In this document: piece by piece, positions 45,172 through 61,502 of the stretch
How the letters are laid out: each line of letters opens with the position of its first letter
Position numbering within the stretch: position 1 is the stretch's first letter
Assembly: GCA_028554795.2 (NCBI GenBank)
Contig: CM068830.1
Span: 106,863,145 to 106,927,144 of the forward strand
DNA: 64,000 nt
Source: Sinohyriopsis cumingii
Lineage: Eukaryota > Mollusca > Bivalvia > Unionida > Unionidae
Direction: 5' to 3'
Notes under the pieces: generated by a model
The model's database searches: none
Told to the model about the DNA's origin: nothing
The model's input: only the letters and a program-made list of their open reading frames with translations
Position numbers and translations under genes: made by a program

Positions 45172-45697
45172 AGTAGTGAAAGGGGTGAGATTAGCGTCAA
45201 TGGGAATTAGCATTACAAACACCCCCTGGGCGAGATTAGCGTCAATGGAAATTTAACATTAACCACCCTGGGCGAGATTAGCATCAATGGAAATTTAACA
45301 TGGGCAAAAACCCCTGGGTAAGATTAGCGTCAATGGAATTTAACATTGGAGAAAGGAAAAAAAAAAGGAAATATTGAGATTAGCGTCAAAGGCATTCGAA
45401 CAATGGAAAAAAAAATATCGATTCTAGGGACAAAGGCAATTGAACATGGGGAATAGAGTTTGGGTCTGTCTAGGGACAAGGGGAATTGAACATGGGAATA
45501 GAGTTTGGGTTTGTCTAGGGACAAAGAGGAATTGAACATGTTAGAAGAAAAAAACTACTTTAGGGACAAGGGGAATTGAACATGGGATTTTTTTTAAATT
45601 TTTTTTTTAAATTTAAATTTAAATTTAAAAAAGGGGTAGGCAATTGAAAAGTCATTCTCTTTTCGAGAAATATGGGTAGCCCTGAAAAGGGCCTTTG
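45172..45697. repeat. Terminal repeat of element A
   Basis: It starts AGTAGTGAAAGGGG. It holds several imperfect direct units of the type GATTAGCGTCAATGGAAATT...CCTGGG, then GGGACAAGG(GG)AATTGAACATGGG units, then an AAATTTAAATTTAAATTT palindromic tract, and ends at a histone-type stem-loop. The same order is found in the terminus of element B at 60007-60427, in the same orientation in this window. The opposite end of element A is not visible, so inverted pairing could not be checked. Confidence 0.8.
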
Positions 45698-46103
45698 GTT
45701 TATCTTCTTCTTCTTCTGCTTCTAATTTCTTCTTTTTCTCCACCAACTTCTTATTTTCTCTCCTACACTCTTTTTCTTCTTTTTTTTTCTCCTCCTCTTC
45801 TTTCTTCTTCTCTTCCTCATCTTCTTTCTTCCTCTTCTCATTTTCTTCTTCTTTTTCAATTTTTTCATTCCATTTTCGTATTCTTACCCTTTCCTCTTCA
45901 TCCTCCTTCTCCTCCTTTATCTCTTTCATGACACCACTTATTATGTCCTTTACTTTTCTTAAGTTATTAATTTCCATCTTTAGTCGATGGGGACTATAGG
46001 AATAGTGGTCTTCATTGAGTCTCACTAACATCTGCTCCATTATTCCTAAATTGTCTAAAACGTCTTGTAATTTTTGCATTTTGTCAAGGTGGTTCGAAGC
46101 CAT
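45594..46103 (-). CDS. Coiled-coil protein gene 1 of element A
   Basis: I do not recognise the family. The first 65 residues form a heptad-like helix start (DKMQKLQDVLDNLGIMEQML), followed by a very long K/E-rich coiled coil. ATG at 46103 is preceded by a TATA-like word (GTATAAG, about 46147) and by a conserved upstream block at 46156-46182. It is one of three tandem genes with the same design (also near 47421 and 48298). A histone-type stem-loop at 45678-45693 lies at its 3' end, so the end of the coding part is uncertain and this frame may overrun it. Role unknown; an oligomeric scaffold or DNA-bridging protein is a guess. Confidence 0.6.
   Translation of the reverse strand: MASNHLDKMQKLQDVLDNLGIMEQMLVRLNEDHYSYSPHRLKMEINNLRKVKDIISGVMKEIKEEKEDEEERVRIRKWNEKIEKEEENEKRKKEDEEEKKKEEEEKKKEEKECRRENKKLVEKKKKLEAEEEEDKPKALFRATHISRKENDFSIAYPFFKFKFKFKKKI
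45678..45693 (-). terminator. Histone-type 3' stem-loop SL1
   Basis: On the - strand the sequence is CCAAA-GGCCCTTTTCAGGGCT-ACCCA, then TATTTCTCGAAAAGAGA. The 6-bp stem, TTTC loop, CCAAA 5' flank, ACCCA 3' flank and purine block about 13 nt downstream are the parts of a histone mRNA 3' end (SLBP stem-loop and U7-binding downstream element). Confidence 0.85.
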
Positions 46104-46155
46104 CTTCTTTGTAGAATGGTTTGAACGACGAATACTGTGGGTTCTTATACGAAAA

Positions 46156-46182
46156 GCGCGGACGTGAAGGAAAACATCCCCC
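46156..46182 (-). promoter_or_regulatory. Conserved upstream block, copy 1
   Basis: On the - strand it contains TTCCTTCACGTCCGCGC, just upstream of a TATA-like word and the ATG at 46103. The same block occurs at 46224-46250, 47486-47510 and 48364-48389, each time next to a coiled-coil gene or its duplicate. The ACGT core resembles a bZIP or bHLH site; the binding factor is unknown. Confidence 0.65.
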
Positions 46183-46223
46183 TAAGACATAAAATTGATC
46201 TTACCTAGATCATGACCAAACAA

Positions 46224-46250
46224 CGCGCGAACGTGAAGGAAAACATCCCC
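46224..46250 (-). promoter_or_regulatory. Conserved upstream block, copy 2
   Basis: A second copy of the TTCCTTCACGTTCGCGCG-type block, 68 bp upstream of copy 1. Duplicated, perhaps with the flanking GATCATGACC word. Confidence 0.6.
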
Positions 46251-46370
46251 TACTTTTCTCATTTCATATAATATGCTATCCACATAAGTGAAGCAACAAT
46301 AAACAAACCCCAAATCTACTATTTACACGCGCAAATCATTAAAACAAAATCCATAATCTACTACCCACAC

Positions 46371-46830
46371 AATCGTACGTGAGCGGTTACAAAACCCAAA
46401 CTATACTCTCCACATACGCTAAGAAACAAAAAACAAAATCCATGATCTACTATCCACACAATCGTACGTGAGCTTTTACAAAACCCAAACTATGCTCTCC
46501 ACATACGCTAAGAAACAATAAACAAAATCCATAATCTACTATCCACACAATCGTACGTGAGCGGTTACAAAACCCAAACTATACTCTCCACATACGCTAA
46601 GAAACAATAAACAAAATCCATAATCTACTATCCACACAATCGTACGTGAGCGGTTACAAAACCCAAACTATACTCTCCACATACGCTAAGAAACAATAAA
46701 CAAAATCCATAATCTACTATCCACACAATCGTACGTGAGCGGTTACAAAACCCAAACTATACTCTTCACATACGCTAAGAAACAATAAAGAAACCCATAA
46801 TCTACCATTCACACAAACTTACGTGAGCAG
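46371..46830. repeat. Minisatellite inside element A, 89-bp unit
   Basis: AATCGTACGTGAGCGGTTAC begins units at 46371, 46460, 46549, 46638 and 46727, exactly 89 bp apart, with a decayed sixth at the right. It lies between coiled-coil genes 1 and 2. A single related stretch precedes gene 3 at about 47740. Confidence 0.92.
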
Positions 46831-46906
46831 TTACAAACACAAACACACAAACACATACACTCGCACTATGAAAAAAGAGTTAGTGTTTATATTCACACTA
46901 CTCTAC

Positions 46907-46910
<4 letters not shown>

Positions 46911-46937
<27 letters not shown>
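46911..46937. repeat. (AC)n microsatellite
   Basis: Uninterrupted AC dinucleotides inside the spacer between coiled-coil genes 1 and 2. Confidence 0.9.
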
Positions 46938-46938
<1 letters not shown>

Positions 46939-46977
46939 TGGCAAATTGATGGTTATTTCTCTTCTAGAGTATTGGGT

Positions 46978-46993
46978 AGCCCTGAAAAGGGCT
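46978..46993 (-). terminator. Histone-type 3' stem-loop SL2
   Basis: On the - strand the sequence is AGCCCTTTTCAGGGCT, then ACCCAATACTCTAGAAGAGAAAT. Same stem and loop as SL1 with a compensating end pair (A-T for G-C). It stands at the 3' side of coiled-coil gene 2. Confidence 0.82.
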
Positions 46994-46999
46994 GTTTTT

Positions 47000-47421
47000 T
47001 TTGGAACTTCATGGACACCTGGTTAATGGTGGCACCTTCCAGGCCTGGCGCCACATACACATCTTGCTCCCCAGTTGCTTTTTACTTTTTTGGGGGAGAG
47101 AGCAGAGGCAGGATATGTGGCTTCAGAATCCCAATTTTCGGTTTCTGGGATTCTGAAATTTCTTCTTCTTTTCTCCTTTTCCTCCTCCTCTTCTTTGTAT
47201 CTTCTCTCCTCCTCTTCTTTCTATCTTCTCTCCTCTTCTTTGTATCTTCTTTCCTCCTCTTCTTTGTATCTTCTCTCCTCCTCTTCTTTATTTCTTCTTT
47301 CCTCCTCCTCTCTCATCCTTCCTTCTTCCACAATGGCCTCCGCGGCCAGTTCGTTCAACAGGCGGCTGGCATATTCCAGATGCACATGAAGTTCCAACAG
47401 TTTCGCCAGTCTCGTGTTCAT
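47000..47421 (-). pseudogene. Coiled-coil protein gene 2 of element A
   Basis: Starts at ATG 47421 with MNTRLAKLLELHVHLEYASR, like the short helical starts of genes 1 and 3, and continues in E/R/K-rich repeats. It has the conserved upstream block at 47486-47510 and a TATA-like word at about 47473-47480. SL2 marks its 3' side. The frame appears broken about once, so its end cannot be given with confidence. Confidence 0.55.
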
Positions 47422-47485
47422 TCTGGTGTTGATCAATCAACAAGGGTAGCTGGACTGCCGAACGAGTTTCAATTTATACTAAAAC

Positions 47486-47510
47486 TGCGGACGTGAAGAA
47501 AAACATCCCC
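47486..47510 (-). promoter_or_regulatory. Conserved upstream block, copy 3
   Basis: On the - strand: GGGATGTTTTTCTTCACGTC, next to TATAAAT and the gene starting at 47421. Confidence 0.65.
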
Positions 47511-47887
47511 CCTAAAAAACATAAAATTGATCTTACCTAGATCATGACCAAAAAACAACGAGCGGACCTAAAAGAAACACTCACTCACTTTTTTATACTA
47601 CCCATTCCTATTCTAAAATTTTTTTTCATTAATCACTCCAATATGCTATTCACATACGCAAAGCAATTCAATCAAACCCCCCAAATCTACTCTCCCCACA
47701 CCTCAAACAGCCAAAAAAAAACATGATCTTAATCTACTATCTACACCAACGTACGTGAGATGTTACAAACACAAACACACAAACACATACCCTCACACTA
47801 TAAAAAAGAGTTAGTGTTTATATTCACACTACTCTACCTACACACATTGGCAAATGGATTGTTATTTCTTTTCTAGAGTATTGGAGT

Positions 47888-47903
47888 GGCCCTGAAAAGG
47901 GCT
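47888..47903 (-). terminator. Histone-type 3' stem-loop SL3
   Basis: On the - strand the sequence is AGCCCTTTTCAGGGCC, then ACTCCAATACTCTAGAAAAGAAATA. It lies 24 nt after the stop of the 47927-48298 gene. The flanking 150 bp (TTAGTGTTTATATTCACACT context) duplicate those next to SL2. Confidence 0.85.
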
Positions 47904-47926
47904 GTTTTTTTTTTTTTGTTTGTTTG

Positions 47927-48298
47927 CTATGGCAATCTTTTAGTTTCTAAGAATGCGATGTCCTCTGAGGATAGACTTTCTGGCGATAGGTCTGCTTCTT
48001 CGGAAAGAGAAGAACTCTTTGGTGTCGATACGACAATCGACAAAGCCTCTCTCAGGTTCAGGTTCCTGCTGATGTTGCTGCTGCTGTTGTTGTTGTTGCT
48101 GCTGTCTCTGAAGTCTGTACTTCTCTGTCCATTCTTCTTTCTCCTGTTCACTTCTTCTCTGAAGAGTTCTTCTATCAAGTCTTCAGTGACTTTTAGCATT
48201 CTCACATTCTCAATCTCTTCTGGCTTCGGTATCAGACTGTGTCTGACCCTATGCAAATTCACGTAGGCTTCGTTTAGCTTAGCTAGTTTGGAGCACAT
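47927..48298 (-). CDS. Coiled-coil protein gene 3 of element A, 123 aa
   Basis: Start chosen at ATG 48298 (MCSKLAKLNEAYVNLHRVRH); the longer frame upstream has no ATG. It has a short helical N-terminus related in style to genes 1 and 2, a polar middle with N/S repeats, and an acidic-serine C-terminus (SSSLSEEADLSPESLSSED). The conserved upstream block lies at 48364-48389 with TTTAAGAACC at the TATA position, and SL3 follows 24 nt after the stop. This is the cleanest of the three gene-plus-stem-loop cassettes. Function unknown. Confidence 0.68.
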   Translation of the reverse strand: MCSKLAKLNEAYVNLHRVRHSLIPKPEEIENVRMLKVTEDLIEELFREEVNRRKKNGQRSTDFRDSSNNNNSSSNISRNLNLREALSIVVSTPKSSSLSEEADLSPESLSSEDIAFLETKRLP

Positions 48299-48363
48299 CT
48301 TCGTAGGAGGATGAGTCGACAATGAATGGTTAGACTGGAAACAATCCGGTTCTTAAAGTCAAA

Positions 48364-48389
48364 GCGCGGACGTGAAGGAAAACATCCCT
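48364..48389 (-). promoter_or_regulatory. Conserved upstream block, copy 4
   Basis: On the - strand: GGGATGTTTTCCTTCACGTC followed by CGCGCTTTGACTTTAAGAAC. Same spacing to the gene start as copies 1 and 3. Confidence 0.65.
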
Positions 48390-48516
48390 CCACGGTTTTC
48401 GAGCCGCAATGTTCAATGAGTGTCATGAGCGGGATAGTAAGAAGTCAAAGAGCATGAATCAAACATTCTTATAGCCAAACAAATCACAAAGGCATTTTTT
48501 TCAAAATACATCATTT

Positions 48517-48522
48517 TTTATT
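48517..48522 (-). terminator. Polyadenylation signal downstream of the capsid gene block
   Basis: AATAAA on the - strand about 220 nt after the stop of the 160-aa gene. No histone-type stem-loop is present here, so the capsid-side transcripts probably end by ordinary polyadenylation. Confidence 0.55.
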
Positions 48523-48738
48523 CAAAAATCACTTAACACTAACCAACAACTCTAACATTTTTTAACAATAATCCAACAATATAACATCAAACATTTTTTT
48601 CAATTTACACTCTACTTTAAACAGGGTTGGCAAAGTTGTGAATGAAATTGTGATTTCCACTGTTGCAAGTCATTGAGTCATGGATGGACACTACGTTTCC
48701 TAGTTTAAGACAACAAAATAAGCATACCAGTAAAAAAA

Positions 48739-49221
48739 TCAACGATTTACTTTCTCATCGTTTCTAGAAAAATCACGATCAAAATAAGTCACTAAATGTT
48801 CTTTTGCTGATAATAAGTGATCAATTTCGATCTCGACTTTCTCTTTGAATTTGTCAAAGAGGGTTTTGATGTAATGGATGTCTCGAGTCGTTAATGGAGG
48901 ACAGAAATGTTCACGCAAGTCTTTATACCACCAACGTAACACGTCTTTTTTAAACAGACTCCAAGCTTCGTCCAGATATTCGTTGAATTTTTCTTCTTGA
49001 CTGATGTTTTGACATCCATAGTAATCATGCTTCATCCATGTCGTAATTGTGTCTGCCAGGTATGTAGCACAGTAGGAGACCAATTGCTGTTCTTGTTCTA
49101 GCCATCTCGACTTGATCACGATGTCCTTTTCGTCTTTGTGTTGGGATTCTCCTTCCACGGTCTCCTCACATTCCATCTTCAAAGCTTCTCCACTAGGTAA
49201 AGAGGGATAACAGTCTTCCAT
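48739..49221 (-). CDS. Unknown 160-aa protein of element A
   Basis: Starts at ATG 49221, five bases after the hexon stop. An acidic N-terminus (residues 1-35) is followed by a mostly helical, charged body with several W and Y residues (WWYKDLREHFCPPL). I do not recognise it. As the last gene of the capsid cluster it may be a virion or assembly protein. A TATAAAA word lies about 145 bp upstream, within the hexon gene. Confidence 0.6.
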   Translation of the reverse strand: MEDCYPSLPSGEALKMECEETVEGESQHKDEKDIVIKSRWLEQEQQLVSYCATYLADTITTWMKHDYYGCQNISQEEKFNEYLDEAWSLFKKDVLRWWYKDLREHFCPPLTTRDIHYIKTLFDKFKEKVEIEIDHLLSAKEHLVTYFDRDFSRNDEKVNR

Positions 49222-49226
49222 GGCTT

Positions 49227-50558
49227 CTAGTAATCTAGAATGACTTCTCTCAAACTGTTGATTTCTATGGTATTATCGAATTCTGCATACAGGATGACGT
49301 TCAACGTTACATCATCATCACCGATTCTGTTTCCGAACTGAATTTCCACACGAATCTGGCCGGATTTTATAGGGTGGAAATGTCCCTCGTCGCTGCCTTG
49401 GTCTGAAGTGAAATCAAAAGCCCACAAAGCATAGCCTCCGTCATAATCGTCGCACGTAATGCCGTGACTGGTGTTGGTTCCTAACTGTCCCGTGGCTTCG
49501 TACAAGGACAAGTACGATCTCAAGTAATTCTTCTTCTCAAAGTCAGGTTCGAAAGGTCGGGTACACAAGGTCTTGCCATCGCGACTGACTTCAATCTTGG
49601 ACACGCTGAAGTGATGAAAGTTGAAAGGATTTTTAGTGATAGCTCCGTTGAAGGCTTCATTCGAGACCATACCAAGGATCAAACGTTTGGGTAGCTGTCC
49701 TTGGAACAGATGATCTTCGATCATGGATCGCTGTCCCCTAGGAATGGTGAAAGTTTTCACTTCTACGCGTCGGATCGGATACTTGGCGGTCGTTCTGCTC
49801 AACGTCTGACTGATGTCGTTACCTACTTTAGGTAACACTTCCACACGACGTACGTAGAGTCTGGCTTCTTGGATTTTGGTTTTGTACTCGCCAGCATCAG
49901 CCAATAAATGGAAAGCGGTACTGCTCCGATTCAGTCTCAGGCGGACATCCACCCCGTTCAGCAAATATTTTTCTTGCAACCACATGTCCAAATGCAAACG
50001 ATCCATCAGTTCTAAACTTTGGTTGGGTCCTATGATTCTCTTTCTTCGTTCTACAAATCCCTCATTGGTGGTTGTTTTTGATTTGGGGTCAGCTTCAAGA
50101 CCTGTTTTATCAAATTCGCCCGCTTCGTGAGGTTCCCATAGCACGCAGGCATTGAGATGAGTGTTCTTGGCGTCTATTCCGTACGTCAAGAGATTTTCCA
50201 GGTAGGCACGGTAAGGGTAAGTATCCATGCTGCTGCTAACCAGTTTGTTGTTCAAGTACAAGTCCACTGAGCTGAACAAGGAATGCATGAAATTGTTGAC
50301 GGGAGCTACTGGCTCAGTGTCTATAGCATTTCCATCCTTATCTAGAACTTTGACTTTCAGGTACAAGTAACTGCTATTCAGATCGATGTAATCTTCGGGC
50401 TGTCCCTTGATTTCAAACTCGATGGGAGCGGAATCGGTCAATGAGGAGACGGGATGAAATTCCACCCATTGGGATTCTTGCATGGTCATCATGGTGGAGG
50501 GCATGGCAAACAGATCCAGTTCCGTCTTGGAACAGGCGCAAGACTCTCGGTGCATCAT
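49227..50558 (-). CDS. Hexon-type major capsid protein (double jelly-roll) of element A, 443 aa
   Basis: Forms the capsid shell in Polintons/adintoviruses. The start is taken at the first ATG, 50558; the longer frame begins with TTG. Family hallmarks are the N-terminal FHPVSSLTDSAPIEFEIKG stretch, LNSSYLYLKVKVLD, the NNFMHSLFSSVDLYLNNKLV region and the Y-R-A-Y-L-E-N-L-L-T-Y-G block, all common to Polinton capsid proteins. The length fits. It is open over its whole length. It is flanked by the pX-like gene (stop/start within about 20 nt) and the 160-aa gene. Confidence 0.9.
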   Translation of the reverse strand: MMHRESCACSKTELDLFAMPSTMMTMQESQWVEFHPVSSLTDSAPIEFEIKGQPEDYIDLNSSYLYLKVKVLDKDGNAIDTEPVAPVNNFMHSLFSSVDLYLNNKLVSSSMDTYPYRAYLENLLTYGIDAKNTHLNACVLWEPHEAGEFDKTGLEADPKSKTTTNEGFVERRKRIIGPNQSLELMDRLHLDMWLQEKYLLNGVDVRLRLNRSSTAFHLLADAGEYKTKIQEARLYVRRVEVLPKVGNDISQTLSRTTAKYPIRRVEVKTFTIPRGQRSMIEDHLFQGQLPKRLILGMVSNEAFNGAITKNPFNFHHFSVSKIEVSRDGKTLCTRPFEPDFEKKNYLRSYLSLYEATGQLGTNTSHGITCDDYDGGYALWAFDFTSDQGSDEGHFHPIKSGQIRVEIQFGNRIGDDDVTLNVILYAEFDNTIEINSLREVILDY

Positions 50559-50575
50559 TGTTTTGTTGCAGTGTC

Positions 50576-50992
50576 TCAATAATCGAAAACGTCTAAGTCT
50601 CGAACGGTTCTTCTTTTCTTGGCCTTTCTAGCTTGAAGTCTGGTGAAAGGGTATTTTCTTCGTCGTCTCTTTCTGCCTTGTCCTTGCTGAATGCTTGACT
50701 CGGTAGCGTGCAGGGCATTTATAGGTGTGTCTCGGCGGCCCAAAAGGTCTTTACCCGTTTGCAGCAAGACATTTTTGCCTGCCCTCATGAAGGCTTCTTT
50801 AGGGTTTTGTTTGTCGATGATGACATTTTGGAGAAATTCTTTGCCTTGTGTCAGTGCCGCATCTTTCAAGGCGTGCAATCCGCGTGTCACCATCGGTTTC
50901 AACACCGGGGCCACCGAACGAAAGGCCGATTTTAACATATCTCCTAAACCGTGTCCTCGCTGTCGTGCAACCCCTCGATACACTGAATACAT
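50576..50992 (-). CDS. pX-like basic core protein of element A, 138 aa
   Basis: Short basic protein with the N-terminal Y-x-G...R-G-H-G-L-G-D-M-L pattern and repeated A/L helices, ending in RKRRRRKYP and KAKKRRT. This matches the adenovirus pX/pVII-like core proteins annotated in adintoviruses, thought to condense DNA in the particle. Start ATG 50992; a TATAAAAGG word at 51081-51089 is about 90 bp upstream. It lies between penton and hexon, the usual place. Confidence 0.8.
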   Translation of the reverse strand: MYSVYRGVARQRGHGLGDMLKSAFRSVAPVLKPMVTRGLHALKDAALTQGKEFLQNVIIDKQNPKEAFMRAGKNVLLQTGKDLLGRRDTPINALHATESSIQQGQGRKRRRRKYPFTRLQARKAKKRRTVRDLDVFDY

Positions 50993-50995
50993 GAC

Positions 50996-51862
50996 TTACG
51001 AGTCGTGAGAGAACCGTTTTCGAAAATGGAGTTTCACCGTGACTTTTCCTTTGGTGAATGGAATATTTTGTCCCAAATCTCCTTTTATAGCAATGTTGAC
51101 CGTGTCCAAATACGACTTGCTGACAGGCAAATAATGAGGATGCACAAATTCCCGGTGGACGTGATAGGTGTTTCCACCTTCCTGGTCACTGGTCGTGGTA
51201 CTATCCACTTTGAAAGGAATGACACGCAGTAACGGTACAGAGGTGTGTCCCACCACGTTATACTCCACCACATCGGAGTACACGAACATCAAATTCAGTC
51301 CTTGGTTCAGTTCTACAGGGAATCGAAAAAACTTGTAAAATTCCATATTGCTGTTGATCTTCGGTTTAAAATTTGGAGCCATTTTTGTGTCTCCACCTAA
51401 AATATCAAACAAGTCACGATTAAAACTGATGGACAACGTTTGGGTATCCTGAAATTTCATCAGTAAGCGGCAAGCCACTTTATGGTACTCCAGGGTGACA
51501 CTTTTTTTGACTCTGTTCAGGGCTTTGCCAAAGGCTAACTCGAACCTGGAAGTAATGGTGTCCACCAAATGTTGGCCACTAAAATAAAACCTTGCCGGAA
51601 TTTTCAAGGTGTAGATATTGAAGGGTGAATTGTTGGATGGTCTTGTGTCCCCTGAAAACCCGATGTCATTCATGGCTTCTTGTAATTGTTGGTTCAGGAT
51701 TTCGACCTCAAAAGTGTTTTGCTTTTCGGTGATGTTTTGGATTTGTGTAGGGTGAATCATTTCTACTAAAGCCACTTCCCAATGGGCTTCGTGATCTAAC
51801 TGGATGGCTTGAGGTAATTTAGCCGTGTAACAGCACAACGTGTTCTTGGGAAACACCTCCAT
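50996..51862 (-). CDS. Penton-type minor capsid protein (single jelly-roll) of element A, 288 aa
   Basis: The N-terminus (residues 1-50: NTLCCYTAKLPQAIQLDHEA, then WEVALVEM) is the conserved start of Polinton penton proteins. Typical later phrases include YSDVVEYNVVGHTSVPLLRV and HREFVHPHYLPVSKSYLDTV. It would fill the five-fold vertices of the capsid. Start ATG 51862 and stop three bases before the next ATG at 50992. The frame is open throughout. Confidence 0.87.
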   Translation of the reverse strand: MEVFPKNTLCCYTAKLPQAIQLDHEAHWEVALVEMIHPTQIQNITEKQNTFEVEILNQQLQEAMNDIGFSGDTRPSNNSPFNIYTLKIPARFYFSGQHLVDTITSRFELAFGKALNRVKKSVTLEYHKVACRLLMKFQDTQTLSISFNRDLFDILGGDTKMAPNFKPKINSNMEFYKFFRFPVELNQGLNLMFVYSDVVEYNVVGHTSVPLLRVIPFKVDSTTTSDQEGGNTYHVHREFVHPHYLPVSKSYLDTVNIAIKGDLGQNIPFTKGKVTVKLHFRKRFSHDS

Positions 51863-51906
51863 GGAACTGTCACTGGGTAAGGTTAATTAAAATTGATTTT
51901 GGTGAC

Positions 51907-52326
51907 TCATAATTCCAGAGTTCTGTGGCTGTCCGAGGGGTTAGTGGACGCCAGAGGCGTGTCTCCGCCCAAAATGGGGTTCTGGTTGTGGTTGTTGTTG
52001 GAGTGGTGACTGGCACTGGCACTGGACACAAGGTTCCCGTGGTTCCCGTTCGAGGAGAATTTCAGGGAGGGATTGGGAAGCAGGTAACCGATGCAACTGC
52101 TCAATAAAATGGTCCACAATTGTTTGTCTCCTTGTTGCAAACTCAAATTGGCAATGGCTGTCTCGATGACACAATACACCACGAAGATTTGGCAGAAAAA
52201 GACGATTTGCGTTTTAGGCACACGTTCTCCACACCACACCCACAAGGGCTGTTTTTGTAAATCTTGCAGAGAAGAACTAGGTGAAGGAGGAGTGGTCGAC
52301 GTAGCTGCGTCTGTGTGAAAGGGCAT
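51907..52326 (-). CDS. Membrane protein of element A, 139 aa
   Basis: Start at ATG 52326 (the slightly longer frame begins with GTG). A proline/serine-rich N-terminus is followed by a hydrophobic segment at about residues 40-60 (VFFCQIFVVYCVIETAIANL) and the motif LWTILLSSCIGYLLPNP, which I know from many Polinton/adintovirus genomes as an uncharacterised conserved membrane protein. The C-terminus is N/H/S-rich. TATAAAAAG at 52338-52346 lies 12-20 bp upstream, inside the integrase end. Possibly an internal virion membrane or exit factor; this is not established. Confidence 0.75.
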   Translation of the reverse strand: MPFHTDAATSTTPPSPSSSLQDLQKQPLWVWCGERVPKTQIVFFCQIFVVYCVIETAIANLSLQQGDKQLWTILLSSCIGYLLPNPSLKFSSNGNHGNLVSSASASHHSNNNHNQNPILGGDTPLASTNPSDSHRTLEL

Positions 52327-52331
52327 GATGG

Positions 52332-53477
52332 TCACTTCTTTTTATAGTCGATGACTTGCGAAGCGTCGATCCAAGAATCAAAACTGGGTGGATATCCTTT
52401 CCAACGTACTTTGACTTCTTTGACACGTCGTTTGCCCACTTTACGGGTTCTGCGTTCGAGAATGCTTTCGATGTCGTACACGTCGTCTTCTTTTTTGGTC
52501 ACACGTTGTAACTCGGGCAAATAAAACGTTCCTTTGAGCACTTCTCCGTTCATGTCTTCCAATTTATAGACGGTAGGATGACGGCCATGCACTCGTCCAG
52601 TGACGAGAAACAATTCGGTCGTCCAGTTAGGTAAGTAACCTTTGTCGCAAGTGCGTTTGGTTTTAGCAATGCGCACCCATTCTCCTACGGCCAACTCTCC
52701 ACTTTTCTTGGGGACAGCCCTCGTCGGGGAGGTACCTAACAGGCGCTCAAACACCAACACTTCGTTGTCGGGAGTCACGTCTTGCGGGGCAGTCCGATGC
52801 TTCGATGGTAAGATTGGTTGTACGCTTGCACCAGGTGCGGTAAGATGTCGATGTACTTCAGAGTGTGGTGATGCGTAAAATATTTCCACATGCGTTCTTT
52901 CAATGTGCGTTGAAAACGTTCCACGATGCTGGCTTTGGTTTCGGGATTCTCGGTGGTAAAAAAAATGAATGTCACGTTTCTTTAATTCTTTTTGGAAAGC
53001 TTGGTTCAGAAATTCAGTGCCTTTGTCCGTTTGCCATCGAAAAGGGTGACGACCGCTTTTTTTCAACACCCGTTGCAGGGCTCGCACTAACTCGCTGCTC
53101 GATTTGGAAGTCAAGGGCACGACCCAGGCAAATTTGGAAAAGACGTCGATGACACAAAACAAATATTTGTAGCCACGATTGTAGCTGGCCAAATGAGAGA
53201 CATCGGCTAAATCGGCTTGCCATTGATGATCGATGCCTTCCACTCGGGTGCGACTTCTGGCAAACTTGCGTCGAATGGGTTTGTGTAAAGTGTAGGTAGC
53301 TTGTTCTTGTAACCATCGTTGCACTTGAGGTAAAGGGAGACTTTTCAGTCGAGTTTTGGCAGCACGATACAATTTTTGAACTCCTGCGTAACCTGCAGGA
53401 TGCGAAGGATCGTAGTAAATGCTGGCTAAGACTTTTTCCATTTTTTTGTGTTGTTGGTGTGTTAATAAGGCACCCAC
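52332..53477 (-). pseudogene. Retroviral-type integrase with C-terminal chromodomain (element A)
   Basis: The family integrates Polinton DNA and makes the 6-bp target duplication. The N-terminal part has the Polinton integrase phrase YYDPSHPAGYAGVQKLY and a zinc-less linker (YTLHKPIRRKF). The catalytic core shows HQWQADLADV with the first acidic residue and WQTDKGTEFLN with the second. The C-terminal part has an SH3-like stretch (YKLEDMNGEVLKGTFYLPEL) and a chromodomain-like end (YDIESILERR, VRWKGYP, DSWIDA), which could guide insertion to particular chromatin. The gene looks broken about once, so it is treated as a fossil. Confidence 0.88.
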
Positions 53478-54109: not shown

Positions 54110-54156
54110 AGGGTTAAGGGGTCGATTCTGAGATCTTGGGACTTCCGAGGGCCTTT

Positions 54157-54543
54157 TTATCTTGCTCCCACCAGTCCTCCCAACATGGTTCCCAAGACTC
54201 CTTTCAGTATGGGGCCTAACAAGAGAGGTAAAATACCTCCACGTTGGACCAACATCTTCTTCTTTTGACGAATGGGAATTTTCTTTTGAACCATTTGGCG
54301 AAGAACGTGACGATGTTTGCTTAAGCATTGTTTCTGGTGTTTGGACAAAGGGATCGTGCCTTTCAAAACGTTCAAACAACATTCGCACACGGTATCGATG
54401 ACCTCTTTGGAGGCCGATTGAATGAGTTTTTTTCGTAGAGGTGGAGAAGCTTTGGACAGGACAGATAACATGTCTCCATGTTTGACTAAACGTGGTGGTA
54501 GTCCTTTTCTTTTCTTTCCTTGGGGTTTTCTGGAGGGTGACAT
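54157..54543 (-). CDS. Conserved small Polinton protein, 128 aa (element A)
   Basis: Start placed at ATG 54543; the longer frame begins with GTG. After a basic N-terminus comes the pattern RLVKHGDMLSVLSKASPPLR, then VCECCLNVLKGTIPLS, then QKKKMLVQRGGILPLLL and a hydrophobic glycine-rich end (LGTMLGGLVG). This protein is very common in marine-invertebrate Polintons and has no assigned role; the hydrophobic tail suggests a membrane-active or capsid-internal function. TATAAAAAAG lies at 54602-54611. It is related to the N-terminal part of the next gene upstream (54607-55530). Confidence 0.75.
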   Translation of the reverse strand: MSPSRKPQGKKRKGLPPRLVKHGDMLSVLSKASPPLRKKLIQSASKEVIDTVCECCLNVLKGTIPLSKHQKQCLSKHRHVLRQMVQKKIPIRQKKKMLVQRGGILPLLLGPILKGVLGTMLGGLVGAR

Positions 54544-54606
54544 CTTTGAGTCTTCTGGAGCACCAAAAAAAACCACTGATACCCCCTACTTGGTCACAGG
54601 TCTTTT

Positions 54607-55530
54607 TTATACTGGAACGCGTCGCCACTGATTGTCTTTACGGCGTATCAGTTTGAGGACAGGCATGACACGTCGTGGAGGGGTACGCAACGGACTAAAT
54701 CGAGCCAGTTCTTGCTTGGACAAATCCAGTAAACTTTGTAACATACCCGATCTTTCATGGACTTTGGTTTTAGGAGAAGGTACTTTGTGAGCAGCAGCCA
54801 CTGCCGCTAAATTGGAGGGTCCTGCCACTGGGGAAGTTCTTCTTGGCGTCATCAACGGAGAAGTTCTTGGTGTGATCAACGTCTCCAAGTACTCTTCAGT
54901 TCTTGGTGTCATCAACGGAGAAGTGGATGAACGTGAGGCTGCCGGAGATGCGGTCACCACCGTGGCAGGTCGTGGTTTGCGAGTGTAAGGTTGTGTCCTG
55001 GCCGAAGTGCCTCTCTTGCGACTAGTTTTCTTCTGTGGACTTTTCTTTTTCTGGGGGCTTCTTTTCTTTTCCCGGGGTGGTGTCTGGTAAGAGGAGGGTC
55101 CCGCCACTGGAGAAGTTCTTCTTGGGGACCTGGTCTTTTTCTTTTTCTTCTTGGGGCTTCGTTGGGCTTTTTTCTTGGGGATAACTTTGGGGGCATTAGG
55201 ATCCCATCTTAAGAGTGAGCGAATGATGACCCCTCCTAGAGTACCACTCCCTCCAGGTTTCAAAATGATTTGTTTTTTGGTTTGAGTGTCGATGCCGGGA
55301 TCGGCCAGTTGGACCAAAGCGACTTTGTTTCGATCGAAAAAGCGTTTGGTTTCATGAGGAATCTGAATGATTCCTTGGAGTATTTGACGTGCCGTCACCG
55401 TGAACCATCGTAAGACTTCTTTGAGACTAGCTTCTAAGACACGAGCTCGTATTTGTGGATTTTTTTCTCGACTGATGCCATACAAGGCACGAATCAATTT
55501 GACGGGAAGATGCGACTGAAGGGACGTCAT
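54607..55530 (-). CDS. Basic protein of element A with a paralogous N-terminal domain, 307 aa
   Basis: Start placed at ATG 55530 (MTSLQSHLPVKLIRALYG) because TATAAAAA lies 40-48 bp upstream at 55571-55578; the longer frame upstream overlaps the ATPase gene. Residues about 15-110 follow the same pattern as the 128-aa protein: A-x-x-KEV, ILQGIIQI, TKKQIIL, GGSGTLGG. The rest is K/R-rich with SP and TP repeats (SPLMTPRT, TSPVAGPS), likely disordered, DNA-binding and phosphorylated. It may be a core or scaffold protein. Confidence 0.7.
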   Translation of the reverse strand: MTSLQSHLPVKLIRALYGISREKNPQIRARVLEASLKEVLRWFTVTARQILQGIIQIPHETKRFFDRNKVALVQLADPGIDTQTKKQIILKPGGSGTLGGVIIRSLLRWDPNAPKVIPKKKAQRSPKKKKKKTRSPRRTSPVAGPSSYQTPPREKKRSPQKKKSPQKKTSRKRGTSARTQPYTRKPRPATVVTASPAASRSSTSPLMTPRTEEYLETLITPRTSPLMTPRRTSPVAGPSNLAAVAAAHKVPSPKTKVHERSGMLQSLLDLSKQELARFSPLRTPPRRVMPVLKLIRRKDNQWRRVPV

Positions 55531-55586
55531 GTTCGCACTGTGAGTGAGACAGACGAAAAAGGGTCTGAGGTTTTTATAGATTTTTT

Positions 55587-56330
55587 TTATGTGGAGTGAA
55601 ATGAAGTCGAGGACGGAGACGTGTACAGGACAGGCCCTCCGTCTTGGCACCAGTGGTGGAACAAGTGGGTACGAAATCGCAAATAATCGGGGGTCGTAGG
55701 TTTCAAATCGACGAGTAAATAGGCGTGTGGAGTTTGAGTGGCATCGTCGTACGCCTGAGTCAGCCAAGGCGTTCCTAACTGTTTGGCTAAGACTTGCACT
55801 TGCGATTTATCTCGAGGGCTTTTAAACAAGACCACGTAATGCGCATTGAGACTGATGGTGCGATGGGCTTTACTTTGTTGAAACAAATTTTGGGTGATGT
55901 AAACGACACTGGCATTACGGTGATGCCCTTTGCGCGTGAACCACAGTTTAATTTCTTCTTCGTCTTCTCCTAACATGTCGTCGAAAATGACCAAATGGGT
56001 TTGACGGGAGTCAGAGACGATGCCGTCGTCTTCTTTAGGAATGGCTTCCACAAACACGATGGAATCGCCTTGACTTTCTCGCAAGAGGCTGTACGCCGAT
56101 TATCACTCTTTGTAACACCACACGATCCGCTGAGGGGGTCGATCGATCAAATGATGTTTATGTTCGATCAAACGTTTGACGAATTCGGTTTTGCCTGAAC
56201 CGCTAGGTCCAGCAATGAGCATGTTAAAGGGATGGCGAAGATACAAAGCCTCCCAACTGGCACGATCTAAGTGTTCGTCGATGACTTTGACAGTAGAGGA
56301 AGAGGGAGCAGAGGCAGCAGAGGTAGCCAT
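55587..56330 (-). pseudogene. Genome-packaging ATPase (A32/FtsK-HerA family), element A
   Basis: The enzyme pumps viral DNA into the capsid. The upstream part, starting at ATG 56330, has a Walker A loop (IAGPSGSGKTEF). The downstream part has a Walker B strand (LVIFDDML) and the sensor-like TQNLF. The Walker A phrase and the FDDM box are typical of the Polinton/adintovirus ATPases. The TATA word TATATAAA lies at 56377-56384, about 50 bp before the ATG. The region appears broken about once and is treated as a fossil. Confidence 0.88.
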
Positions 56331-56401
56331 AGTGTGAGAAATGTCACTTGTGACACGAAAACAAACAAGACAAGAGTTTATATACTTTTTTTCAGAACAC
56401 G

Positions 56402-56407
56402 TTTATT
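56402..56407 (-). terminator. Polyadenylation signal after the small membrane-protein gene
   Basis: AATAAA on the - strand just beyond the 56415 stop and before the ATPase promoter. Confidence 0.5.
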
Positions 56408-56414
56408 GAATGTT

Positions 56415-56648
56415 TCAAACATGAATACGAAAGACAAAAATACATAAAAGCCAAAGGCTTAAGTATAAGGATAAAAAGCACATGATAACCATCAACGTGG
56501 AATAAACACAAGTGGCTGTACAACATGTTTTGGGTAATGTTCTAACCAGTTCTATAGTAGGGGGTAAGGTCACACAAGTGTCCTCCCGAAAGGGTCTTTC
56601 AGGCCTGTCCACGACAGTCCCGTCCTGGGTGACGGGTTCTTCTGGCAT
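56415..56648 (-). CDS. Small membrane protein of element A
   Basis: Start uncertain: ATG 56648 is used, but an earlier ATG at about 56764 opens another short Cys-rich frame, so the arrangement is not resolved. The frame ends in a strongly hydrophobic segment (STLMVIMCFLSLYLSLWLLC) near the C-terminus, i.e. a tail-anchored layout. The TATA word TATATAAAAAGG at 56818-56829 lies inside the 3' end of the polymerase gene, and AATAAA follows at 56402-56407. Function unknown. Confidence 0.45.
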   Translation of the reverse strand: MPEEPVTQDGTVVDRPERPFREDTCVTLPPTIELVRTLPKTCCTATCVYSTLMVIMCFLSLYLSLWLLCIFVFRIHV

Positions 56649-56795
56649 CGTCACTAACACAGGTTGAAAAGTCGCAAGGCTCACAATCGCATTCCAGTTC
56701 AGAAGCCCCACACTTGAATTGTGCCTGTCTAAACTTGTTTTGTGTTTGTCTGAAAGTATTCATCTTGTTCGCTCGGTCTTGGTAGTCATAATGAA

Positions 56796-59700
56796 CTATC
56801 GATCTTGCCTAGGGTTCCTTTTTATATACAGTCCAATACCGACGTGTCCATACGGTAAGGTGAAATGATTAGGAAGTCGCACTCGCTTCTGGTACACGAT
56901 TTGATAGACTTTTTCCAAGGGTCGACTGACGATGTGGTGAGTGGGTAAACGTACAATTTTGTTCGGTTGATAGGTGGTCACTTTAAAGTTTCCATCCTCT
57001 CCCGATTGCAAGGCTTCTTTCAATACCCCAAAGTTCACCACACGACTGGTACGATAATTCAGAGTCAATCCTTTCACTTTACACGTCGTGTGCAATTCTC
57101 CTTGTGGGTCCCGGTATTCGTAGCCGTAATGTTTTGGACCGCCACTGACGAAACTTAGAATCTTGTCGTCGGGATGTTCGTCTGTCCAGGCTCCTAAACG
57201 GTCTCCTTCGATGTCAGGGTGCTGTTGACTCGGGTGATGGATGTAAATGGAACTGTCCGTGTCAAAGTACAGGACACGTTCCCCTAACAGTTCTAAAACT
57301 TCGTACAATTTTAAGCGAGCATGAGCTGTCACGTAAGCCGCAATGATGACATTTCCAAAGGGGTCGTCTTGTACAAAGTCCAGATCTTCTTCGTAATTGA
57401 CCAAGATCAAATCCTCGCGAACGACGTCCACGTGTTTCATGTATTTGGTTTTGTCGTGAATCATCTGAAAATAGCGGGAAGGTTCTGTCAAATATACCGT
57501 CTTGGGTAAACACGGTCGTTGTGCCATTTTACCCCACAAGCAATTTAACATCACTTTCTCAAACGACCGCCTGCCCTCGTTTTTCTCGATGTGGTCTAAA
57601 GAGATGCCTTCTTGTGCGTAGTATTTCTCTTTGAATGTCTTTTCGTCTTCGGAAGTGTGACACCAGGAAGGATATCCACTGGCTTCTTGTTTCAGTTTCA
57701 AAAAGGCATCCACGTAGTCGGCGAAAATGCCTTTCTGAGTGGGGTCACCCTTGCGGTATTGTTGTGTCTTGGGAAAGTGGCAAATTTCGTACACTTCTAA
57801 CAGTTGGTATCCCATGTCCAGAGCTTTGAACAATTCTACGCTGACCCAGGTTCCCGTCAAGGCCCGTTCTTCCTGGGTGTGCTGACAAGGTTGGTCTTGG
57901 TTGCACGTTTCGGCACAAGTACGACACAATGGAAACATCAGTTTGCCTTGACAATGGTGAGGTAAGACGGGATGGTACAAGTCCGTGGGAGGCAAAACTT
58001 TACACTTGATCAAGCCTTCGTATTGTCGAATGTTTTTCAGGTCGATGTGTTCCGTGAACAATTGTGGGTGCCCTGCAGGAAAGGGACAATATTTGCACAC
58101 GTAAGGATACAGCGAACGCACGTCCAAGTATTTGATTTCTTCTCCTTTCTCTTCGTCGGCTTGGTACAGCAAACAGGTGGCATTGGTCCTTCCTCCGTAC
58201 AAACTATCCCTCGGGTTCAAGGGGTCCATCAGCTTGTAGCTTTCCACGGCACGTTTAAACTCGGGATCGGTTTTCATACTGTGATCGTACTCGTGTTCCC
58301 ACATTTCCACCACTTGGTATCCTTGCTGTTCTAACTTTAGGCGTCGCTGACAAGTGTCCTGGTACAAGTCTTCCATGGTTCGTTGTAAAAACTGATTTTT
58401 AGTGCTACGATCAGGGTAACAGACGGGACATCCGTGAAATAAGCAACCGTTAAACTCGTACACGATCTTGGGGTTTTCTAAGTCCCAGCCATCGACCGAA
58501 TACGTTCCGATGATCTTTTCGCCTCCTCCGTTGCGGGCATGCTGAATCCATTTGTCTTCCTTGTCGCACAAGTAATGTAACCAACGTAGGGCTTTGACCG
58601 AGTATTGACGTTTGACATAGTGGGTCGTTTGAGGACTGATGACAGCCACGGTGTTTTCAGGCATGAATCGTTGTCGATACACTAAGGAACACGCTTTGGC
58701 AATGGTGCAAGCTTCTTTCAAAGGATCGACCCCTCCGTGTTCCATGAACAGTTCTCGAAATTTTCCACAGCAACGCCGTAAAATGTCCACGTCGGAACGA
58801 CAATACTTTAGCATTTCTTCCTGAAAGTCGAAAGGGTCGGAGGCGTGAGTCTGGTACCAAGCGTAGAAAGCTTCTCGTTGTTCGGTACGCATGTTGTCGG
58901 GGTCGTAATAGTGAGCCTCTGGCAAATGGGGTAGAACGGCGTGTTGATTGGCTTCCGTATTGAAAAAGTGTGGAAAGTACCCTTTAGCCATTTCTGTCAT
59001 TCCAAACGTTTTAGGCATTCGACTCAAAGGCATGGCCAAATAGCTCATCGAATCTTTAAACTGCACTTGTCCCACTTGCATGAAAATGATTTTGGCTCCG
59101 TTCAAAGTGACTTTAGGACGTTCGGTGCCTTGTTCCGTATAGTATCTGAGAAGAAACTGTCCATCGTATCCGGAGAAATTGTGAGCCATCACCGTGGCAT
59201 GACGATGACAATCTCCGTAACGTTCGATGTCCTCTTGGCTCCACGTCTTGTCGATGGGATCTAAAACCCATTGGGCAAAATCGGCTAACGTGTTCGGTCC
59301 TCGAAAGATTTTTTCACGCCCTCCGGGATCTGGCTGCAGTGAGGGCAATGACTGAAGATAGGTTCTTGAATGCACTTCTCGCACGCTCGATGAGCCACGC
59401 AGAAATTAGGAATGTGAATGCCAGTCTCTTGCATGCATTCGAAATCGAAAAAGATGAAATTGCCTTTCTTCTTGTGACCGTCCTCTTTCTCTGGTGGGGG
59501 TTGGTATTTTTGCACGTAGCATTCGTGTTTCAAGTCCACGATGTGGTGACAAATGTGACATTTTTTCTTTCCTGAACATACGTGTGCCTTGGCATTATTG
59601 GTACGTAGGCCTTGTCGACACGTAGGGCACAATCGCAGCAGTTGACAAGCACATTTCTGCTGTGAACCTTGCGTCTTCAGATGTTGTTGGTAACAGGCAG

Positions 59701-60006
59701 GGCTGACAAACGTGCGCAGACAAGCAGGACAATGTACTCTTTCTTGTCCTTCGCTCAGACAGGGTGGAGAGGCCAAACATCCTGGGCATTTCCATCCGCA
59801 ATGTTTGTGTTGCTCTCGATTGTTATAGCCATAGTCACATTTCTCACAGTAATAACTGTATCCCAGGAATCCAGTGATAGTGGTAATGGTATCGAAATGG
59901 TCATCGTGATAATAGACATGAATGTATTTTCCGTCCTTAAAGTCTTTCCCTCGAAACAACAGAGGCCCACGCACTTCTTGAGGGTGCACTTTCAAGGTGA
60001 AGCGTG
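56796..60006 (-). pseudogene. Protein-primed type B DNA polymerase of element A, cut by element B
   Basis: Replicates Polinton DNA. The zinc-rich region (CEKCDYGYNNREQHKHC; CHICHHIVDLKHEC) is followed by the exonuclease boxes FDFECMQ (Exo I), AHNFSGYDGQF (Exo II) and YCRSDVDIL (Exo III). The polymerase boxes are DVRSLYPYV (A), KVMLNCLWGKM (B) and LYFDTDSSIYI (C), in normal order. The 5' part of the gene is missing here because element B is inserted at 60006/60007: the coding match to B's own polymerase runs right up to that junction. Besides the insertion it looks broken about once. It is about nine-tenths identical by eye to B's copy over their shared part. Confidence 0.93.
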
Positions 60007-60427
60007 AGTAGTAAAGGGGGATACATTAGCGACAATGGGAATTAGCATTACAGACCCCCCTGGGACAGATTAGCGACAAGGGAAATTTAACATGGAGAAA
60101 AATCGTGGGTCAGATTAGCGACAAGGGAAATTAACATGGGAATAAATCGTGGGTCACTCTAGCGACAAGGGGAATTTAACATGGAACTATAGTGTGGGTC
60201 TGTCTAGCGACAAGGGGAAATTAACATGGGAATAGGGGACTGTATAGCGTCAAAGGAATTTAAACAGGGTGGGTCTGTCTAGCGACAAGGGGAAATTAAC
60301 ATGGGGAATAGAGTTTGGGCTTTTGGGATTATTTTTTTTAAATTTAAATTTAAATTTAAAAAAAGGGGTAGGCAATGGAAAGGCTATCTCTTTTCGAGAA
60401 ATATGGGGGCCCTGAAAAGGGCCTTTG
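60007..60427. repeat. Terminal repeat of element B
   Basis: Same layout as 45172-45697: AGTAGT start, GATTAGCGACAAGGGAAATT-type direct units, an AAATTTAAATTTAAATTT tract at about 60338-60358, GGGGTAGGCAAT and a histone-type stem-loop. It is about 100 bp shorter, owing to fewer internal units. Confidence 0.82.
60408..60423 (-). terminator. Histone-type 3' stem-loop SL4
   Basis: On the - strand the sequence is CCAAA-GGCCCTTTTCAGGGCC-CCCATATTTCTCGAAAAGAGA, with perfect stem pairing. It lies 24 nt after the stop of the 76-aa gene and at the inner edge of the terminal repeat. Confidence 0.87.
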
Positions 60428-60446
60428 GATTTATGTTAATATGTCC

Positions 60447-60677
60447 TTAACATAAAGGGCATCTGTGGCATCTTCTTGTCCTCAAGCTGCGTCTTACAGC
60501 AGGGCCATACATCAGAGTCCTCTTGAGGCAACCTTGTCTCTCTATGTAGACTCTTCGTATCCACAAACTGCTGGTGGTCCTGTGGACAACGGTCCACTTG
60601 GATCGGACATACATGAGCATGTCCGTCCTGAACATCATTGAAGACACGAAGGTGGAAGATTCAACGTCAGTCCACAT
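60447..60677 (-). CDS. Small gene of element B, 76 aa, unknown
   Basis: ATG at 60677, about 50 bp after a TATAAATA box at 60726-60733, and followed by SL4 24 nt after the stop. The product is basic with many R residues and ends CHRCPLC. No family was recognised. The TATA box and stem-loop on either side make this a convincing transcription unit even though the protein is short and untypical. It is transcribed toward the element end, like coiled-coil gene 1 in element A. Confidence 0.55.
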   Translation of the reverse strand: MWTDVESSTFVSSMMFRTDMLMYVRSKWTVVHRTTSSLWIRRVYIERQGCLKRTLMYGPAVRRSLRTRRCHRCPLC

Positions 60678-60725
60678 CTTGCGGCTACGAGAATAGCTGA
60701 GTGAGTGATTGCACTGAACTGCGCT

Positions 60726-60733
60726 TATTTATA
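60726..60733 (-). promoter_or_regulatory. TATA box of the 76-aa gene
   Basis: TATAAATA on the - strand, 49-56 bp upstream of ATG 60677. It shares a divergent promoter region of about 220 bp with the gene starting at 60901. Confidence 0.65.
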
Positions 60734-60831
60734 GGTACAGGTAGGATTGAAACGGATTGAGTTCATTCACCAATCCGAACACGCGTTACAAAATTCAGTC
60801 AGCCCGCATCCAATCCGAAGAGAGCAGTCTG

Positions 60832-60853
60832 TGACGTCACGTAGTCTATATAG
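60832..60853 (+). promoter_or_regulatory. CRE-like site and TATA box of the Q-rich gene
   Basis: A perfect TGACGTCA palindrome (CREB/ATF-type site) at 60832-60839 is followed by TATATAG at 60847-60853, 48-54 bp before ATG 60901. Confidence 0.65.
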
Positions 60854-60900
60854 ATTTGCTAGCGCTTGTGTGCAGTCAATCTATGCGACAGTGATTCAAC

Positions 60901-61461
60901 ATGACGGAAACTCAGAAAACGATCCATTGGGGTGCACCAGCAGGGGAGACTGCCCAAGGGAACCCGGACTTACTTTCAGAAGAGGTACATTGGGATTTTG
61001 TGGATTTTCTTACCTCGCAAGAATTTGTTCCGGAACCTTCGTTACCATCTTCATTACCGCAAGTGGAGAATTTTAGACAGAGACAGAAAGAAGAATTGGA
61101 GAAATTTATGCAACGACAAAAGGAAGCGGAACAAGCTTTTCTCCTACAGCAACAGCAACAGCAACAAGAAGAGGTAAGAAAAAAACAACAGCAACAACAG
61201 CAAGAAGAAGTAGCAGCAAAGAAACAAGAGGGTGAAAATCAAACGGCTACGGTACTGTTGGACATTTTAGCGGAGTTAAGAAGTCTGAAACAAATGTATC
61301 AGACTTCTTTATCACGACCGAAGAGAATACGACCTTCCCGAGCTAAACACGCCAACCCTGTGACTAAGCCTATCGTACCACCCTTAGTGATTTCAACCCA
61401 ATCATCAGAAGTAGGCCTTGGCCGTGGCAAAGGCTTAAGGCAGTTAAAGTTGATTGGTTAA
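60901..61461 (+). CDS. Q-rich coiled-coil protein of element B, 186 aa
   Basis: ATG 60901 follows a CRE-like site and a TATA box. The acidic N-terminus (residues 1-60) is followed by a coiled coil with QRQKEELEKFMQRQKEAEQ and two glutamine runs (about residues 85-105), another helix (LLDILAELRSLKQMYQTS) and a basic tail (SRPKRIRPSRAKH). I do not recognise it. The stop is 25 nt before stem-loop SL5. The design (coiled coil, TATA, histone-type 3' end) recalls the coiled-coil genes at the other end of element A, though the sequences differ. Confidence 0.7.
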   Translation: MTETQKTIHWGAPAGETAQGNPDLLSEEVHWDFVDFLTSQEFVPEPSLPSSLPQVENFRQRQKEELEKFMQRQKEAEQAFLLQQQQQQQEEVRKKQQQQQQEEVAAKKQEGENQTATVLLDILAELRSLKQMYQTSLSRPKRIRPSRAKHANPVTKPIVPPLVISTQSSEVGLGRGKGLRQLKLIG

Positions 61462-61486
61462 ACTCACCCCTACACCAAAATAAAAA

Positions 61487-61502
61487 GGCCCTTTTCAGGG
61501 CC
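61487..61502 (+). terminator. Histone-type 3' stem-loop SL5
   Basis: GGCCCTTTTCAGGGCC followed by ACCCAGATTTCTCGAAAAGAAATA, the only one on the + strand, after the only visible + strand gene that is not the polymerase. An AATAAA word at 61479-61484 lies directly before it, so polyadenylation is an alternative to test. Confidence 0.87.

Follow-up and report, generated by a model that had tools for sequence, protein, structure and literature searches.

The closest described relatives of the mobile element reported here are the Polinton/Maverick elements and the adintoviruses, with which it shares a family-B DNA polymerase, an rve integrase with a chromodomain, a weak A32/FtsK-like ATPase, terminal repeats and, in examples, a length of ~17-20 kb. 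The element lies in a 64,000-nt stretch of the bivalve Sinohyriopsis cumingii (Unionidae; GenBank assembly GCA_028554795.2, contig CM068830.1, positions 106,863,145 to 106,927,144 of the forward strand), hereafter the window, and it differs from these relatives in adding histone-type signals to its genes. The system that the signals resemble is the replication-dependent histone mRNA 3' end (RF00032), in which an SLBP stem-loop is combined with a U7-type histone downstream element (HDE). The element has the same stem, TTTC loop, A-rich 5' flank, spacer and CTNGAAAAGA-type HDE, its spacing is close to that of the host, and its HDEs could pair with a candidate U7 RNA. Unlike those of histone genes, the element's signals follow non-histone genes of a mobile element, their end pair is A-U at two of the five gene positions, and the RNA end is a predicted one. 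On comparison with the host's own histone genes, we consider it highly probable that five small genes of this Polinton-type element are under the host histone 3'-end programme.

A stem-loop match in Polinton relatives is not new as such, whereas its analysis is. Section 16 of a study of a Polinton-like virus/virophage collection (PMC12220804) gives, from a scan for noncoding RNAs, six ‘histone 3'UTR stem-loop’ matches as a count among RNA classes and leaves them undiscussed there; in that section the matches come without context, host comparison, HDE or promoter, and none is in the study's cryptophyte elements. Our literature search, which covered open-licence papers, found no analysis of histone-type signals in Polintons or Mavericks. 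The statement of an initial annotation of the window, which knew of no description of such signals in Polintons, needs qualifying as to the bare match.

Five histone-type 3' signals in the window

A hairpin pattern search of the window, with 0.34 matches expected by chance, returned five 16-nt hairpins, a number reached by none of 100 shuffles. They lie at the positions and on the strands first proposed (45678..45693, 46978..46993, 47888..47903 and 60408..60423 on the minus strand, 61487..61502 on the plus strand), each oriented in sense with respect to a neighbouring gene. The Rfam model RF00032 (Histone3), a scan that the initial annotation had itself suggested, aligned over its whole length at all five, with E values of 1.3e-8, 3.5e-7, 6.5e-6, 6.2e-5 and 0.0027; in order of position the scores are 35.6, 29.6, 25.2, 32.2 and 39.5 bits, so that the stem-loops at 61487 and 45678 pass the gathering score of 34 bits. 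When a covariance model was built from the five host histone genes only (R1), the same five sites scored 55 (61487), 51 (47888), 49.5 (46978), 46.7 (45678) and 43 bits (60408), with E from 6.8e-13 to 1.9e-9, and the sixth match in the window reached 16.2 bits. The host histone genes themselves score 56-64 bits with this model.

Downstream of each stem-loop stands a purine block of the CTNGAAAAGA type, and stem, spacing and block are all alike to those of the host histone genes. The latter lie in 8.3-kb tandem units in the order H3-H4-H2B-H2A-H1 (H1 matching PF00538) and end in GGCCCTTTT[T/C/A]AGGGCC (H1: GGTCCTTTTCAGGACC), followed by 13-14 nt ending in CTA (CCC in H2A) and then by GAAAAG, while element cassettes carry CT[A/C/T]GAAAAG or CTAGAAGAG after the spacer. 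In the window the block (GAAAAG, or GAAGAG at 46978) starts 12-14 nt after the stem, compared with 13-14 nt in the five host genes; its presence had been correctly noted, with the distance given a little too widely as 13-20 nt. The HDE-like blocks read CTCGAAAAGA at 45658..45667 on the minus strand, where GAAAAG begins 13 nt after the stem, CTAGAAGAGA at 46958..46967 (minus), and CTAGAAAAGA at 47867..47876 (minus), in the same letters as host H3, H4, H2B and H1. Two further blocks, at 60389..60398 (minus) and 61513..61522 (plus), also read CTCGAAAAGA. An ACCCA-like flank had been described for most cases; the exact ACCCA follows the stem at three of the five sites, 47888 and 60408 being without it.

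Each cassette stands at the 3' side of a small gene. Three open reading frames (ORFs) stop shortly before their stems, namely 47927..48298 (minus, 123 aa, 23 nt before stem 47888), 60447..60677 (minus, 76 aa, 23 nt before stem 60408) and the Gln-rich 60901..61461 (plus, 186 aa, 25 nt before stem 61487). The 66-aa frame at 47221..47421 (minus) stops 227 nt before stem 46978, and the small charged gene at 45594..46103 (minus) has a 169-aa frame that, in the window copy, reads through the stem at 45678, only a 48-aa frame stopping 28 nt ahead of that stem. Four of the five stems had first been placed ~24 nt after a stop codon or in the matching position; such a stop is found at three. Pfam gave no match for four of these genes and a sub-threshold AIP3 match only for the Gln-rich one, and in BLASTP the protein of 47927-48298 was without significant likeness to the two other right-end proteins. 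Across the fetched copies, 65 of 86 stem-loops lie 5-40 nt downstream of the end of an ORF of 50 aa or more, compared with 79 of 1720 random positions (4.6%); in this set, sites in overlapping loci count double, and the stem-loop itself had served to select the first 30 loci.

To place these signals against the host array, the whole 8.3-kb histone unit was compared with the whole window by blastn (E<0.05). All 24 matches fell in signals, 19 in the five cassettes and 5 in the promoter motifs described below, with none elsewhere; 20 dinucleotide shuffles of the unit gave 4 matches in total (mean 0.2) and the reversed unit gave 0. A chance origin of the five stem-loops is ruled out by the pattern shuffles, RF00032, the host-only model and these blastn shuffles. 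The comparison shows five cassettes in the host histone form, each consisting of an SLBP-type stem-loop, a spacer and a U7-type HDE, and each 3' of a small gene. Past the HDE the likeness of the cassettes is closest to host H2A, where none of 500 mononucleotide shuffles did as well, and weaker to the other four histone genes, where 38-196 of 500 did. The cassette may derive from a host histone gene, with H2A the best match beyond the HDE, and we infer that an H2A-like 3' end may have been captured. A stretch beyond the HDE that is common to host H2A (L050:3737-3793, CATCAATTTTGCCA) and the element (window 46943-46993, CATCAATTTGCCAA) is perhaps a further 3' signal.

Promoter motif and candidate U7 RNA

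The three right-end stem-loop genes also share a 25-bp motif, GGGATGTTTTCCTTCACGTCCGCGC, 52, 63 and 65 nt before their ATG codons. On the minus strand it occurs at 46156..46180, 52 nt before the ATG of ORF 45594-46103, where blastn against the host histone unit gave a second copy with one difference (46225..46249); with three differences at 47485..47509, 63 nt before the ATG of ORF 47221-47421; and at 48364..48388, 65 nt before the ATG of ORF 47927-48298, a site that blastn matches to the host H2B upstream region (E 0.001). The host histone unit carries the motif before H2B (3 differences in 25), before H1 (2) and, reversed, in the upstream region of H2A (6). A further stretch like the host H4 upstream region (TTTCTTTTAGGTCCGCTCGTT) lies ahead of ORF 47221-47421, at 47557..47587 (minus), and matches L050:1454-1484 at 84% over 31 nt, with an E value of 0.028 that is weak alone. 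Allowing up to three mismatches, the motif core is found in the window only at the four places before right-end genes, and the capsid-like, integrase and polymerase genes have no copy ahead of them. Genome-wide, its 18-bp core has 36,072 matches, compared with 1 for the reversed form. The motif's presence in host histone upstream regions adds a second line of evidence for the three right-end genes, one beyond what the initial annotation had put forward.

U7 RNA carries a hairpin, which is also part of the Rfam U7 model. The 5' end of U7 pairs with the HDE, and its Sm site, AAUUUGUCU, follows directly, as laid out in PMC7026596. Three loci in the host genome (two on contig C17 and one on C9) have divergent flanks but a common core made up of TCTTTTCAAGTTTCTCTAG, two free bases and the hairpin AGGCAGATAAAYTGCCT, and are probably U7 RNA genes; the candidate RNA consists of TCTTTTCAAG, an Sm-like TTTCTCTAG and a hairpin. 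They are the three that read as U7 among five places fetched by eye from 100 listed pattern matches, and both the shared hairpin and a shared AAG are parts outside the search pattern. The candidate 5' end pairs at 9 of 10 HDE positions in host H3, H4, H2B and H1 and at 7 in H2A. At the five window HDEs it pairs at 8-9 of 10 (9/10 Watson-Crick at 45658..45667, 8/10 at 46958..46967), and in the L001-type copy at 10 of 10. Complementarity of the purine blocks to host U7, another check proposed at the outset, was thus seen for a candidate RNA only, seven of whose ten pairing bases were preset in the search. Two other places were rejected: L032, the single weak RF00066 place, is not U7-like, and L059, from a first U7 pattern, reads as a decayed element end in antisense.

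Element copies and RNA-level constraint

The stem plus HDE pattern has 53,105 matches in the searched genome (2.9 Gb, 1138 contigs) and 0 in its reversed form. At five sites per element, this corresponds roughly to ten thousand element equivalents, a figure in which some host H2B genes are counted and mutated sites are not. From an RF00032 genome scan, in which 75 of 589,472 candidates were scored, the best 30 were made into loci, selected by the signal itself; their stems are of the element type and, by eye, they have element flanks, unlike those of host histone genes. In 38 fetched sources, R1 gave 81 matches of at least 35 bits (6 of them in the histone array, with some sites repeated by overlapping loci) and 6 near 15 bits.

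The position of the stem-loops is kept in related copies of the same genome that were chosen without regard to them. Of 28,851 candidate matches to the capsid-like gene, the best 95 were scored, which leaves divergent families unreached, and seven copies spread down that list were fetched; 20 of the 21 expected stem-loops were in place. The one missing belongs to L066, whose end is rearranged, and one of the 20, in L063, has two broken pairs and scores 24 bits. Five copies chosen by their right-terminal stem-loop all had the other two right-end stem-loops too (10 of 10 places), each with A-U as its end pair. All five signals occur in element order at C1:34139-53638, over 19.5 kb. The best 95 capsid-like matches are 93-100% alike and about three-quarters are without an internal stop, and on both counts the expansion of the element looks recent. 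No relatives came from IMG/VR when its proteins were scanned with the capsid-like protein, the polymerase and alignment A1, and the strict stem pattern matched 0 contigs; three stretches found there with a looser pattern were taken as chance, none matching RF00032 at E 0.1.

Constraint at the RNA level was assessed on 40 host and element sequences forming 26 distinct rows, which are related, so that few events are counted. In this set 98.1% of cells are paired, with a covariation score of 0.223, and none of 500 shuffles attains either value. The end pair is A-U in 12 of the distinct rows, G-C in 12, G-U in 1 and unpaired in 1. Within the window, the claim that the end pair changes with pairing kept holds at the G-C (60408 and 61487), A-U (46978) and G-U (45678) sites but fails at 47888. 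At the 46978-type site, mean pairwise identity is 1.0 in the stem and 0.96 in the HDE, compared with 0.62-0.86 in the flanks.

Two element copies lie inverted to each other in the window. The left one (~45172-60006) is cut short in the polymerase gene, and the second begins at ~60007 and runs past the window into L031. Their terminal repeats, the right one at 45172..45706 and the left one of the second copy at 60007..60437, match in blastn pieces of 69-91% identity and face each other in element orientation. In that orientation the three minus-strand stem-loops at 45-48 kb, the first of them within the terminal repeat, are at the right end; at the left end, a divergent gene pair carries those at 60408 and 61487, the former within the left terminal repeat. 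The integrase gene (52332..53441, minus) encodes an rve core (PF00665, 7.3e-14) and a chromodomain (PF00385, 1.8e-7), and the family-B DNA polymerase gene (56796..59189, minus; PF03175, 4.2e-41) is truncated on its 5' side in the window copy. The match to an A32/FtsK-like ATPase (PF04665, 1.8e-4) is below its cut-off. Pfam gave no match, and PDB sequences no significant one, to a 443-aa protein that we take to be capsid-like, and its structure model (pLDDT 41) was too poor for use.

Several other features of the element were seen. The polymerase to capsid-like genes of the second copy continue beyond the window at ~92-96% DNA identity, and a gene at 61753-62223 (minus), which has no stem-loop, encodes zinc knuckles (PF00098, two stretches) and an acidic tail. 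The terminal repeats (45180-45600 and 60020-60320) hold many short GATTAGCGTCAATGGAAATTTAAC-like repeats followed by an AT palindrome. Tandem repeats of ~89 bp, some copies of which are 95% alike, lie between two stem-loop genes at 46303-46844, and a tandem repeat array at 42510-43223 yields long repetitive frames.

Alternative explanations and a proposed mechanism

The identification of the signals as histone-type 3' ends, made in the initial annotation, is supported by Rfam (two of five above the cut-off, all at E <=0.0027), by the host-only model at all five sites, by the spacing, by 20 of 21 expected stem-loops in copies chosen without regard to them and by the end-pair covariation. Several results weigh against assigning the five genes to the histone 3'-end programme. 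The sites at 46978, 47888 and 60408 fall below the Rfam gathering score, the end pair at 47888 is an A-C mismatch in the window copy, and the frames at 45678 and 46978 end away from the normal place. The five cassettes share ~50-70 nt with one another and are thus copies rather than independent cases, and element copies are kept alike by recent expansion. Two of the five covariation measures are within reach of the shuffles (both-side changes, 2, reached by 24 of 500; further pair types, 6, reached by 37 of 500). At the 47888-type site the stem (0.97) and HDE (0.95) are hardly set off from much of the flank (0.92-0.96), other flank pieces being at 0.74-0.78. The promoter motif is absent, at up to three mismatches in the window, before the two left-end genes. 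As to the host factors, the U7 search pattern held TCTTTTC and TTT[C/G]TCTAG and so fixed seven of ten pairing bases by design, it was not enriched (101 matches against 130 for the reversed control), and the Rfam U7 model gave only 17.9 bits (E 0.77) at one candidate locus. A genome search for SLBP (PF15247) gave no match among 14 candidates scored, with the controls silent too. AATAAA and ATTAAA are absent within 300 nt after four of the five stem-loops, but since neither hexamer follows 8 of 10 other element gene ends tested, the absence does not discriminate and is not counted as support. The missing poly(A) signals, the SLBP search and 47888-type conservation are accordingly of no help to the histone-type reading.

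The cassettes might instead be passengers, one captured histone-derived fragment that was copied along the element and its terminal repeats and is kept by copy number without functional 3' processing. The ~50-70 nt common to the cassettes, two of which lie in terminal repeats, would fit such a history, as would the H2A-like sequence past the HDE (0 of 500 shuffles) and the 93-100% likeness of the best 95 capsid-like genes. Nothing, on the other hand, would oblige a passenger to have a stop codon 5-40 nt ahead of it (as 65 of 86 stem-loops do, compared with 4.6% of random positions), to preserve compensated end pairs, to conserve stem and HDE more than their flanks as at the 46978-type site, or to occur in genes three of which have a histone promoter motif at the opposite end; we regard this explanation as improbable. 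We give hardly any credence to a hairpin that serves as a DNA or other RNA signal, such as a transcription terminator or a hairpin at the element's end used in replication or packaging, with its histone likeness convergent. Two of the five hairpins do lie in terminal repeats, but three are internal, all five point the same way as a neighbouring gene, the match extends to an HDE at host spacing, and the promoter motif is histone-like too.

Both kinds of 3' end could also be in use, the histone type in dividing cells and the polyadenylated type in others, a combination that strikes us as rather unlikely, though not far-fetched. The AATAAA found 51 nt past the 61487 stem would suit it, and polyadenylation signals downstream of histone genes have been described for C. 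elegans and human (PMC1924863); the other four stem-loops, with neither hexamer within 300 nt, argue the other way, although most other element gene ends are in the same state. For the promoter motif, the direction might be reversed, the host array having taken its H2B/H1/H2A motif from the element, or the motif may be a general host promoter motif, and its 36,072 genome-wide matches, far in excess of the histone genes, would suit either. We think this unlikely; the host array shares only ~25 bp and no larger piece of the element, and either direction leaves both sets of genes with the same signals.

Should the five small genes be run by the histone 3'-end programme, as we favour, host histone transcription factors would act on the three right-end genes, and the transcripts of all five would be cut a few nucleotides after the stem by U7 snRNP, SLBP and CPSF73. 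Their mRNAs would end without poly(A) and would follow histone mRNA in their synthesis, translation and decay, chiefly during S phase or in germline or embryo cells that divide rapidly, so that element proteins would be supplied when host DNA replication can support the element. In the window, the capsid-like, integrase and polymerase genes carry neither the stem-loop nor the promoter motif, and the five small genes therefore look like a separately controlled class. That the mRNAs are non-polyadenylated, that expression falls in S phase and that the element is linked to host replication we infer from these signals. A bolder proposal, which we find possible but doubtful, is that the element family is a histone mimic, whose terminal small genes are driven by the promoter factors of host histone genes and processed by their 3' machinery, perhaps within the histone locus body, and are expressed only during replication. 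With ~53,000 intact stem plus HDE sites compared with hundreds of host histone genes, its transcripts could then compete for SLBP and U7 and touch histone supply.

A mobile element with the histone 3' signal and, in part, a histone promoter motif would use that system alongside the histone genes. If this is true, it would give a natural means of asking which features make a gene ‘histone-like’ and would link Polinton activity to the host S phase, and poly(A)-selected RNA-seq may miss the transcripts of these genes.

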